In this document: in pieces, positions 967 through 48,223 of the stretch | How the letters are laid out: every line of letters starts with the position of its first letter | Numbering within the stretch: position 1 is the first letter of the stretch | DNA from: Candidatus Nanopelagicales bacterium | Lineage (GTDB): Bacteria > Actinomycetota > Actinomycetes > S36-B12 > CAIYMF01 | Direction: 5' to 3' | Length of the DNA stretch: 64,000 nucleotides | NCBI GenBank assembly: GCA_017848795.1 | Contig: JAFIHG010000043.1 | Location: 1 to 64,000, forward strand | The notes under the pieces: model-generated | What the model was told of the DNA's origin: nothing | Seen by the model: only the letters and a program-made list of their open reading frames with translations | The model's database searches: none | Program-made: the position numbers and the translations under genes

Positions 967-1459
967 AGAAGGGCCCGCGCGCCACCCAAATGAACCGTTG
1001 GTGTTCTTTCGGTTCTCACCTTCCAGGGCACGTCACCACACGGCAGTCAACGTCGAGACCACGTCCGCCCAAATGATCTGGACCCGGGTGACACCTCGGT
1101 GGTCGAGCGTAGTCGAGACCACTTCGGGGATCATGGTCTCGACTGCGCTCGACCGACGTGTGGTTGCGAAAGCCGTTACAGAGCAACCCACCGTCATGAA
1201 GGCCGACTGGGCTCGCCCCGCATGTGCTTACGGGCGCAGTTTCGGGATCGGTCCACGGGACGGCACTTGCCGGAGCTGGCTTGTACCGAACGGATAACGG
1301 TCGACGTGGCGACTTCAGCAACCGGCCGAAGTGGCCGAGGATGCAGCAACACCGGGCCAGCGCAGGTCCGGCGCCGACGACCACGACTGACCGTCGCGAC
1401 GGGGATGACGGGCGCAGCGCCCGAAGACCGCACGTGGGTCCAAGACCGCTGGAGCTCCT
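967..1459. other. 493-bp gene-free region between the HNH gene and a secreted-protein gene
   Basis: I see no credible gene here. Short frames on both strands have no ribosome-binding site and no recognisable domain. The only clear structure is the inverted repeat at 1101-1154. The promoter of the downstream secreted protein should lie in the last 150 bases, but I cannot pick a convincing -10 box. The text GGAG at 1451 is the ribosome-binding site of the next gene. Confidence 0.6.
1101..1154. repeat. Extragenic inverted repeat of the GGTCGAG..GTCGAGACC type, copy 1
   Basis: Two 21-nt arms (1101-1121 and 1134-1154) are complementary except for one base and flank a 12-nt loop. The arm core is GGTCGAGCGCAGTCGAGACC. 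The same core recurs after dacB at 21414-21495, so this is a dispersed palindromic repeat rather than a gene-specific operator. It has no U-tract and no flanking target duplication that I can see. Confidence 0.8.
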
Positions 1460-8705: not shown

Positions 8706-9775
8706 CCGGTGCCACGCGGCGGCACGACCCGCAGCTGCGCGGGTTCGCCAGCGACAACTACTCCGGCGTCCACCCCGAGGTGCTCGAGGCCCTGCAGGTC
8801 GCCAACGACGGCCACCAGGTGTCGTACGGCGAGGACGACTACACCGCGCACCTGCAGGTGCTGTTCCGCCGGCACTTCGGCGAGCACGCCGACGCGTACC
8901 CGGTGTTCAACGGCACCGGCGCCAACGTCGTCGCCCTCCAGTCGGTCACCGACCGCTGGGCGTCGGTGATCTGCACGACGACCGCGCACATCCACGTCGA
9001 CGAGTGCGGCGCACCGGAGAAGGTGGGTGGGCTCAAGCTGCTTCCGGTCCCGACGCCGGACGGCAAGCTCACCCCCGAGCTGATCGACCGGGAGGCACGC
9101 GGCTTCGACGACGAGCACCGGGCCCAGCCGCAGGTGGTGTCGCTGACGCAGACCACCGAGCTGGGCACCGCCTACACCCCCGACGAGGTGCGGGCGGTCT
9201 GCGAACACGCCCACCGGCTCGGGATGCGGGTGCACGTCGACGGGTCACGACTGTCGAACGCGGCGGTGACGCTCGGCGTGCCGTTCCGGGAGTTCACCAC
9301 CGACCTCGGCGTCGATGTGCTGTCCTTCGGCGGCACCAAGAACGGGCTGCTGCTCGGCGAGGTCGTCGTGGTGCTCTCGCCGGAGGCGGCACGTGGGTTG
9401 CCGTACGTGCGCAAGTCGATGATGCAGCTCGCCTCGAAGATGCGGTTCCTGTCCGTGCAGTTCGACGCGCTGCTCTCGGGTGACCTGTGGCGGCGCAACG
9501 CCGCGCACGCGAACGCGATGGCGACCCGGCTCGCGGACGGCGTACGCGGACTGCCCGGGTTGACGGTCACCCAGCAGGTGCAGGCCAACGCCGTGTTCGC
9601 CGTACTGCCGCGCGAAGTCACCGCCCGGCTGCAGGAGAAGTTCCGGTTCTACACCTGGGACGAGCACACCGGCGAGGTGCGCTGGATGTGCTCGTTCGAC
9701 ACCACCGAGGACGACGTCGACGCGTTCGTCGCCGCGATCCGCGCCGAGCTGCTTCCCGCCAGCGGTTCCGGATGA
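8702..9775 (+). CDS. Threonine aldolase / beta-eliminating lyase-family PLP enzyme
   Basis: A 357-residue fold-type I PLP enzyme. GTG 8702 overlaps the upstream stop. The N-terminus RGFASDNYSGVHPEVLEAL is the typical beginning of low-specificity L-threonine aldolases. VFNGTGANVVAL binds the phosphate, HVDGSRLSNAA carries the PLP-ring aspartate, and SFGGTKNG contains the Schiff-base lysine. Family members cleave beta-hydroxy amino acids to glycine plus an aldehyde; the exact substrate is open. The last residues Ser-Gly and the TGA stop lie inside the palindrome at 9766-9824. Confidence 0.88.
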   Translation: MTGATRRHDPQLRGFASDNYSGVHPEVLEALQVANDGHQVSYGEDDYTAHLQVLFRRHFGEHADAYPVFNGTGANVVALQSVTDRWASVICTTTAHIHVDECGAPEKVGGLKLLPVPTPDGKLTPELIDREARGFDDEHRAQPQVVSLTQTTELGTAYTPDEVRAVCEHAHRLGMRVHVDGSRLSNAAVTLGVPFREFTTDLGVDVLSFGGTKNGLLLGEVVVVLSPEAARGLPYVRKSMMQLASKMRFLSVQFDALLSGDLWRRNAAHANAMATRLADGVRGLPGLTVTQQVQANAVFAVLPREVTARLQEKFRFYTWDEHTGEVRWMCSFDTTEDDVDAFVAAIRAELLPASGSG

Positions 9776-9824
9776 ATGTGGCAGGACTCCGCTAAGAGTG
9801 GAGTCCTGCCACATTCATCCGGAA
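9766..9824. repeat. 59-nt perfect palindromic element, family A copy 1, containing the upstream stop codon
   Basis: Arms 9766-9790 and 9800-9824 are perfectly complementary over 25 bp with a short loop that can pair further. The core is GGATGAATGTGGCAGGACTC. The element differs from the copy at 48165-48223 by one base, and that change keeps pairing as G-U. The threonine-aldolase-like gene ends in it (TCC GGA TGA), and the ribosome-binding site of the next gene begins directly after it. There is no T-tract. Confidence 0.95.
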
Positions 9825-17315: not shown

Positions 17316-17380
17316 CCCGTGTCCCTGCTCGAAACGTCGTCAACTCGCGGAGTTGACGACGTTTCGAGCAGGGACACGGG
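17316..17380. repeat. 65-nt perfect palindrome with 31-bp stem, containing the dipeptidase stop codon
   Basis: Arms 17316-17346 and 17350-17380 pair perfectly around the loop GCG. The dipeptidase gene on the minus strand runs into the palindrome and takes its last dozen residues and its TGA (17340-17342) from it. No T-tract follows on either strand. The sequence is unlike family A (9766 and 48165), but the arrangement at a gene 3' end is the same. Confidence 0.95.
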
Positions 17381-18449
17381 CATCTTCGGCGGCGCGGAGT
17401 ACGCGCAGGGTGTTGCGCCAGCCGAGCTTGTCGAGGTCGGCCGGGCTCCAGCCGTTGTCGGTGAGCGCCTCCCAGAGCCGCGGGTAGCAGGACACGTCGT
17501 GCAGCCCCACCGGAAGCCCGTCCGTGCCGTCGAAGTCGCCCCCGATGCCGACGTGGTCGATCCCGGCGACCTCCCGGACGTGTTCGAGGTGGGCGACGAC
17601 GTCGGCGACGGTGGCCTCCGGCGGCGGGTCGGTACGGGCCACCTCGCGGCGCAGTGCCGTCATCGCCGCCCAGTCCCGCGGGTCGATCCCGCGTTCGCCG
17701 GCGAGCCCGTCGACGCCCAGCGCCCACTCGCGCCGCGACCGGGACACGAACTCGGCGACGAACGTCACCATGCACACGCCGCCACGCGCCGCGAGCGTCT
17801 CGAGCACGTCGTCGGGGACGTTGCGCGGGGTGTCGCACAGCGCGTACGCCGACGAGTGGCTGAACACCACGGGCGCGGTGCTGACCCGTAGCGCGTGGCG
17901 CATCACGTCGGCAGACACGTGCGAGAGGTCGACCAGCATGCCGAGCCGGTTCAGCTCGGCCACGACCTGCTCTCCGAACGGGCTCAGCCCGTGCAGCACC
18001 GCGACGTCCGTCGCCGAGTCCGCCCAGCTGGTGTTCTCGTTGTGGGTGAGGGTCAGGTAGCGCACGCCGAGGGCGTACGTCAGGCGCAGCACGGCCAGCG
18101 ACTCGCCGATGCTGTGCCCGCCCTCCATGCCGAGGAGCGAGGCGATCCGGCCCCGGGCGCGGACCGTCTCGACCTCGTCCGCAGTCGCCGCGAGCGCGAG
18201 CCGCTGCGGGTAGCGCGCGACGAGCCGGTGCACGAAGTCGATCTGCTCGAGCGTCGCACGTACCGCGTCGCCGCCGCGCAGCGCGCACGGCACGAACACC
18301 GACCAGAACTGCCCGGTGACACCGCCCGCCGCCAGGCGCGGCAGGTCGGTCTGCAGCCGCGGTTCGCCGCCGGCGAGGTCGACCGCGTCGAGGTCGTACC
18401 CGGCCAGCTCGCGCATCGCCCATGCCAGGTCGTTGTGCCCGTCGATCAC
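17340..18449 (-). CDS. Membrane dipeptidase (peptidase M19, renal dipeptidase family)
   Basis: A 369-residue zinc enzyme. DGHNDLAW at the N-terminus supplies the HxD ligands, LGMEGGHSIG the bridging glutamate, LVDLSHVS and FSHSSA the two central histidines, and GIGGDFDG the late aspartate. All are family landmarks, so activity on dipeptides, including D-amino acid ones, is likely; the natural substrate is unknown. There is no signal peptide. GTG 18449 lies six bases after a TACCGT box. The final residues after about 357 derive from the palindrome and are probably not part of the ancestral fold. Confidence 0.92.
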   Translation of the reverse strand: MIDGHNDLAWAMRELAGYDLDAVDLAGGEPRLQTDLPRLAAGGVTGQFWSVFVPCALRGGDAVRATLEQIDFVHRLVARYPQRLALAATADEVETVRARGRIASLLGMEGGHSIGESLAVLRLTYALGVRYLTLTHNENTSWADSATDVAVLHGLSPFGEQVVAELNRLGMLVDLSHVSADVMRHALRVSTAPVVFSHSSAYALCDTPRNVPDDVLETLAARGGVCMVTFVAEFVSRSRREWALGVDGLAGERGIDPRDWAAMTALRREVARTDPPPEATVADVVAHLEHVREVAGIDHVGIGGDFDGTDGLPVGLHDVSCYPRLWEALTDNGWSPADLDKLGWRNTLRVLRAAEDARVPARNVVNSAS

Positions 18450-47287: not shown

Positions 47288-48174
47288 GCCTGTCGTACGA
47301 GCTGCGCGCCGCGCTCGACGCGGCGGGACTGGATCCGGCGTACGTCGAGTCGCTGGTGCGCGCGGCCGTCGCCGAGGACCTGGCCGGCGGGGTCGACGTC
47401 ACGTCCACCGCGACGGTGCCGGCGGAGCAGCGCTCCGTGCTCGAGCTCGTCGCGCGCGCGCCGGGGACGGTCGCCGGTGCACCCGTCGCGGCCGCCGTCT
47501 TCGAGGTCGTCTCCGGCGGTGATGCGACGGTACGGATCGACGTCCCCGACGGTGCGGCCGTGACGGCGGGGCAAGTGCTGGTGACGGTGGACGGGCGGAC
47601 CCGGGACCTGCTCACCGCCGAGCGCACCGCCCTCAACCTGTACGGCCACCTGTCCGGTGTCGCGACGGCGACAGCCGCGTGGGCGGCTGCGCTCGCCGGA
47701 TCGCGTACGCGGGTCCGCGACACCCGCAAGACGACTCCGGGCCTGCGGGCGCTGGAGAAGTACGCGGTCCGCTGCGGCGGCGGGGTCAACCACCGGATGG
47801 CGCTGTCGGACGCAGCGCTGGTCAAGGACAACCACGTACTCGCGGCTGGTGGCGTCGCCGAGGCGTTCCGTGCCGTGCGCACCCGCTGGCCGGGACTGCC
47901 CCTCGAGGTCGAGGTGGACTCGCTCGACCAGCTCGACGAGGTGCTCGACGCGGGGGCGGACCTGGTGCTGCTGGACAACTTCACGCCGGAACACATGGGC
48001 GAGGCCGTACGCCGTACCGCTGGGCGCGCGACCCTCGAGGCGTCCGGCGGGCTCGTCCTCGCCGATGCCCCCGCGGTCGTCGCGACCGGTGTCGACTACG
48101 TCGCCGTCGGCGCCCTCACCCACTCCGCCGCAGTTCTCGACATCGGCGCCGACCTCCGCCCCCTTTCCGGATGA
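47284..48174 (+). CDS. nadC: Quinolinate phosphoribosyltransferase (nicotinate-nucleotide pyrophosphorylase)
   Basis: A 296-residue enzyme turning quinolinate and PRPP into nicotinate mononucleotide. AERTALNLYGHLSGVAT, VRDTRKTTPGLRALEKYAVRCGG with the quinolinate Arg/Lys residues, HRMALSDAALVKDNH, VEVEVDS and LLDNF are all in canonical order. GTG 47284 overlaps nadB. The final Ser-Gly codons and TGA are part of palindrome A2 at 48165-48223, so the native end of the protein was replaced or slightly changed by the element. Confidence 0.96.
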   Translation: MSLSYELRAALDAAGLDPAYVESLVRAAVAEDLAGGVDVTSTATVPAEQRSVLELVARAPGTVAGAPVAAAVFEVVSGGDATVRIDVPDGAAVTAGQVLVTVDGRTRDLLTAERTALNLYGHLSGVATATAAWAAALAGSRTRVRDTRKTTPGLRALEKYAVRCGGGVNHRMALSDAALVKDNHVLAAGGVAEAFRAVRTRWPGLPLEVEVDSLDQLDEVLDAGADLVLLDNFTPEHMGEAVRRTAGRATLEASGGLVLADAPAVVATGVDYVAVGALTHSAAVLDIGADLRPLSG

Positions 48175-48223
48175 ATGTGGCAGGACTCCGCTAAGAGCGG
48201 AGTCCTGCCACATTCATCCGGAA
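48165..48223. repeat. 59-nt perfect palindromic element, family A copy 2, containing the nadC stop codon
   Basis: Arms 48165-48192 and 48196-48223 pair perfectly over 28 bp around a 3-nt loop AAG. It matches the copy at 9766-9824 at all but one position. The TGA of nadC (TCC GGA TGA) lies in the left arm, in the same phase as at the other copy. coaX starts 24 bases later with its own ribosome-binding site, AGGAAC. Confidence 0.95.

Follow-up and report, generated by a model that had tools for sequence, protein, structure and literature searches.

REP sequences bearing a GTAG tag are short palindromes, often species-specific and of several types per genome, that in most cases follow a gene and separate ORFs in tandem or convergent orientation (PMC3733652). 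Their stems measure 5–13 bp, they are associated with RAYT, and their ends often give the flanking ORF its stop codon, TAG (PMC3733652). CGTC-tagged REPs have no dedicated transposase and combine a stem of 8–9 bp with a CGTC end tag (PMC3733652). For E. coli REPs located within 15 nt of a stop codon, ribosome stalling and reduced translation have been reported (reviewed in PMC12306157); only ∼11% of the REPs examined in that E. coli study lie so close (PMC12306157). In Neisseria and Pasteurellaceae, DNA-uptake sequences form paired-hairpin terminators at gene ends (PMC1852404).

Here we describe two families of palindromes, F1 and F2, present in the window, the whole 64,000-nt stretch of actinobacterial DNA analyzed. 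Both resemble GTAG REPs in being palindromic repeats that are placed at gene 3′ ends and supply stop codons, but their stems are 28–31 bp long, they carry no tag, and six genomes contained no Y1_Tnp match. With CGTC-tagged REPs they share the character of palindromic repeats without a dedicated transposase, while differing in tag and stem. Most F1 and F2 copies lie as close to a stop codon as the stop-proximal E. coli REPs, many overlapping it. Like DNA-uptake sequences, they are repeated sequences paired as hairpins at gene ends; uptake signals, however, are ∼10 nt long and number 1000 copies or more, whereas F1 and F2 occur in tens of copies and always as whole hairpins. Among actinobacterial repeats, the MIRU elements of mycobacteria have also been reported where one gene stops and the next starts, running into the ends of both neighbors, but in place of a perfect hairpin MIRUs have direct repeats and a small ORF.

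Two families of long palindromes

The initial annotation had singled out a 59-nt palindrome at 9766–9824 that recurs at 48165–48223, and it is indeed present at both places (neither copy being assigned to a strand). Copy 2 has perfect 28-nt arms; copy 1 has arms of the same length, a 3-nt loop and one G-T pair, which is the only difference between the two copies. The earlier description had put the stem at 25 bp, shorter than the arms measured here. In each case the upstream gene ends within the left arm in the phase that had been proposed (TCC GGA TGA). A gene of the beta-eliminating lyase family (PF01212; 8702–9775, + strand) reads GGT TCC GGA TGA, with the stop codon (9773–9775, + strand) at element position 8–10 of copy 1, and nadC, encoding quinolinate phosphoribosyltransferase (PF01729/PF02749; 47284–48174, + strand), reads CTT TCC GGA TGA, with the stop codon at 48172–48174 (+ strand) in copy 2. 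Downstream genes start 12 nt past copy 1 (FAD-dependent oxidoreductase, PF01266; 9837–11204, + strand) and 23 nt past copy 2 (coaX, type III pantothenate kinase, PF03309; 48247–49005, + strand).

The RNA fold of the F1 hairpin is predicted at −55 kcal/mol (z = −12.6 versus shuffles). The window holds three perfect hairpins of at least 10 bp, compared to one per shuffle, and two of them measure 28 and 31 bp. Genome-wide, the F1 arm gave 62 matches, compared to 0 for the reversed pattern used as a control. On the basis of the shuffle comparisons of window and fold, together with this arm count, a chance hairpin was rejected.

The suggestion of a dispersed element, which had rested on two copies, gained from this search: F1 comprises 33 copies, all 59 nt long, in a genome of 3.45 Mb, and no F1 arm (≤3 mismatches) lies in the genome outside these 33 hairpins. 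Element ends read TTCCGG/CCGGAA or CGTGGG/CCCACG. Across copies the core of each arm hardly changes; the variable parts are the inner stem and the six outermost bases, where changes mostly match between the two arms. Of the 28 pairs, 12 are altered on both sides, a number reached in 0 of 500 shuffles. Moreover, the two arms of one copy are more similar to each other than are arms from different copies. Among non-Watson-Crick positions, pooled over F1 and F2 and read on the sense strand, G-U and A-C are equally frequent (28:27), a symmetry unlike that expected of selection on one RNA strand, which was therefore rejected. Arm-to-arm correction in DNA, or use of both strands, would fit the symmetry better, and either may be what keeps the palindrome symmetric.

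F2 is unrelated in sequence to F1. Its copy in the window (17316–17380, no strand assigned) is a 65-nt palindrome with 31-nt arms, and a TGA at element position 39–41 (17340–17342, − strand) is the stop codon of a membrane dipeptidase gene (PF01244, M19; 17340–18449, − strand). There are 26 strict copies in the genome and 33 copies in the stretches read; F2 and the families of relatives described below were sampled through a pattern search plus the stretches read, and their counts are not exhaustive. Element ends are CGCG/CCCG. Positions 39–41 form a stop triplet in 64 of 66 arms (TGA, 41; TAG, 18; TAA, 5), and TGG was seen 0 times at this site, compared to ∼11 expected if both bases varied independently. 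The lack of TGG is suggestive, the copies sharing descent such that no clean probability attaches to it. Five F2 genes end at the 39–41 stop, and all three stop codons are used among them.

Other palindromes were noted along the way. One, CGTTGATCATGATGTCGCGGGTCGCAAA..., with a 27-bp stem, is a third long palindrome and lies between convergent genes (L064:11916–11976). An imperfect palindrome, GGTCGAGCGYAGTCGAGACC...GGTCTCGACTNCGCTCGACC, occurs both at window positions 1101–1154 and at L063:2071–2120 and may represent a further repeat family.

Placement at gene 3′ ends and supply of stop codons

Gene calls came from a self-trained caller, and each species was represented by a single draft genome. 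Of the 66 F1 and F2 copies, about 56 lie within 20 nt of a gene 3′ end or span one. Between tandem genes, 21 of 22 F1 copies and 17 of 22 F2 copies are at most 15 nt from the 3′ end, compared to 6 of 22 and 3 of 22, respectively, that are at most 15 nt from the 5′ end. When 3′-end proximity was compared to uniform placement, 0 of 20000 permutations matched it for F1 and 0 of 20000 for F2. The copies are thus tied to gene 3′ ends rather than scattered at random, as the initial annotation had held. Exceptions in F1 are one copy within an ORF and two between gene starts.

That the element always supplies the stop codon proved to be only partly the case. F1 provides a TGA in 15 of 33 copies, to 16 genes, and most other copies begin 0–15 nt past the native stop: relative to the element, 16 gene 3′ ends fall at +10, that of one read-through gene at +33, a single one at +78, and most others at 0 to −15. 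Genes that run into F1 use the +10 frame more often than expected (16/19; binomial p = 7e-6 under equal frames). On either strand, each of the two families has a stop codon in one of its reading frames. Judging from the sequences, the excess of the +10 frame could stem either from selection after insertion or from target preference. Placement at gene ends is supported; stop supply may reflect adaptation or selection against the other frames.

In the sense direction, flanks of F1 and F2 copies are C-rich 5′ of the element and G-rich 3′ of it. Insertion into the loops of older hairpins was considered and rejected, as the F1 flanks are not complementary (p = 0.90); F2 flanks are weakly complementary site by site (p ∼0.02).

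For genes with an alignable orthologue, proteins ended by F1 mostly terminate 0–3 residues from the orthologue ends, indicating that F1 sits at the native stop. The C-terminus of nadC, for instance, is RPLSG* compared to RPIA* in the orthologue, and other F1-ended genes finish in ...RSG* or ...TVG*. At the L069 copy, the gene lacks a 35–42 residue C-terminal tail found in orthologues of other genera. The L070 copy ends two genes, for one of which the other-genus orthologues are longer and the same-genus orthologue is not. Some relatives have no F1 at nadC-coaX; in G012, for instance, a short gap with no hairpin separates the two genes. Mapping copies to stop codons and comparing element-free orthologous loci, the approach put forward in the initial annotation, in this way located F1 at native stops. 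In G011, a 30-bp palindrome of that genome's own family (L101:853–918) occupies the nadC-coaX site where this genome has F1; the junction seems to draw hairpins.

Relatives and known repeat classes

A first search of 59 relatives, and one of a sample of the phylum, turned up no F1. Most relatives carry neither family, and two have versions of their own. G008, of the same family as this genome, holds a family A of 40 copies (arm GGATGGGTGAG versus GGATGAATGTG) and a family B of 23 copies, both mostly at 3′ ends. Of 46 family B arms, 34 have a stop codon at the matching site, and this stop shares its frame with an outer TAA at +7 that belonged to the search pattern. G011 has 15 copies of a palindrome related to family B, among them the one at nadC-coaX. 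The exact F1 arm GGATGAATGTGGCAG is present in a Streptosporangiaceae MAG, where the inner stem is different; at two mismatches, this MAG gives ∼70 F1-arm matches per strand, compared to 5–7 for the control. Its F1-type hairpins (L073, L076, L077, L078) often lie within a longer, MITE-like repeat with inverted ends GCTATTCA...TGAATAGC. The viral contigs, plasmids and phages searched contained no match to the element, and a phage or plasmid origin was rejected.

The broad traits of REP-like repeats are all found in F1 and F2, which are multi-copy, palindromic, extragenic and located at gene 3′ ends. The GTAG end tag of REPs is absent from F1 and F2 ends, and neither family shows the CGTC end tag with 8–9 bp stem. 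Y1_Tnp (PF01797, RAYT) had no match in six genomes, this one included (a 98% complete draft, which could miss one), and control genomes matched; a RAYT-driven REP was rejected on this ground. We found no excess of 2–9 bp direct repeats in element flanks that would point to target-site duplication. With regard to intrinsic terminators, the G+C-rich hairpin is present and the T-run is not: none follows the hairpin in 37 F1 and 40 F2 ends, and in the 37 F1 ends the longest T run is 2, with a T fraction of 0.10 compared to 0.14 in the background. The initial annotation was therefore right that GTAG core, terminal duplications and T-run are all missing. Rfam gave 0 matches in the window at gathering score, and a known RNA family was rejected.

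Whether the element is something other than a classic REP depends on what is compared. Motif, stem length and mobilizer differ, as the annotation had argued. However, stop donation and 3′-end placement are already documented for REPs, which makes the behavior of F1 and F2 REP-like. We file the two families as a variant of REP-like repeats and not as members of the GTAG or CGTC REP families.

Origin and role of the gene-end palindromes

On balance, F1 and F2 are probably REP-like, non-autonomous mobile palindromes that survive at gene ends, where they form a strong 3′ hairpin. The distribution of copies, tens of them nearly identical in each family and at unrelated loci, suggests that they spread as DNA palindromes, which some enzyme would move; no Y1/RAYT gene turned up in the six genomes. 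Copies would then persist at the boundary between stop codon and intergenic region, where they are least harmful and might even be of some benefit. Having an in-frame stop three codons in, an inserted F1 would overrun only the last codons of a gene and change the protein little, while the transcript would gain a 28-bp hairpin (−55 kcal/mol). From position and predicted folding, this hairpin most likely acts as a bidirectional 3′-end structure; candidate roles are mRNA 3′ protection or an RNase III site, termination without a U-tract, and ribosome slowing as in E. coli REPs. Counting against this reading are the failure to find a mobilizer, the lack of target-site duplication, the even 28:27 ratio of G-U to A-C, which shows no trace of selection on one RNA strand, the loss of the C-terminal tail at L069, and the few copies between or away from 3′ ends.

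F1 and F2 might instead be the species' transcription terminators, homogenized via gene conversion or else multiplied as functional units, and not selfish repeats, with placement following from terminator function. The few ordinary G+C-rich hairpins here are similarly placed, 9–26 nt after stops; F1 and F2 make up nearly all strong gene-end hairpins in the window; and nadC-coaX holds other hairpins in several relatives (the 30-bp palindrome in G011, shorter ones in G001, G015 and G016, read by eye). Yet the hairpins lack a T-run (longest T run 2 in 37 F1 ends), a terminator placed between nadC and coaX would interrupt what is likely an operon, the genes being close together in G012, and termination does not require overlap with a stop codon. 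Nor is it easily squared with two unrelated families of fixed length, or with the finding that only a few of 17 relatives have species-specific families. We regard this explanation as unlikely, while giving it real weight.

Two further explanations fare worse. If the element were a MITE mobilized by a DDE-type transposase, with the two arms as its terminal inverted repeats, this would account for the longer repeat with inverted ends that encloses several hairpins of the Streptosporangiaceae MAG. The element in this genome, however, is a bare hairpin with neither internal spacer nor 2–9 bp target duplication, and there is no arm (≤3 mismatches) beyond those of the 33 hairpins to serve as the flank of an insertion sequence, all of which makes a MITE very unlikely. 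More improbable still is an operator, that is, a binding site for a chromosome-organizing or regulatory protein. Near-perfect dyad symmetry, a near-invariant core arm and arms common to two distant genomes are what such a site might show; operators, however, sit at promoters, whereas almost all copies are at 3′ ends, and a contiguous 28-bp dyad with compensatory inner changes exceeds the needs of a binding site.

Beyond the reading of F1 and F2 as REP-like mobile palindromes lies a broader and distinctly tentative possibility: the gene-end palindromes of actinobacteria may form a distinct class of two superfamilies, each reappearing as species-specific variants and dispersed by a non-RAYT mobilizer that targets the stop region, with a stop in one frame selected via swaps among TGA, TAA and TAG. 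If the account of F1 and F2 given here is right, REP-like palindromic repeats would exist without the sole known REP mobilizer, with stems that are far longer and with copies bound closely to stop codons. It would then become a testable question what moves such RAYT-less repeats, and whether their stops are kept by selection for harmlessness at gene ends.
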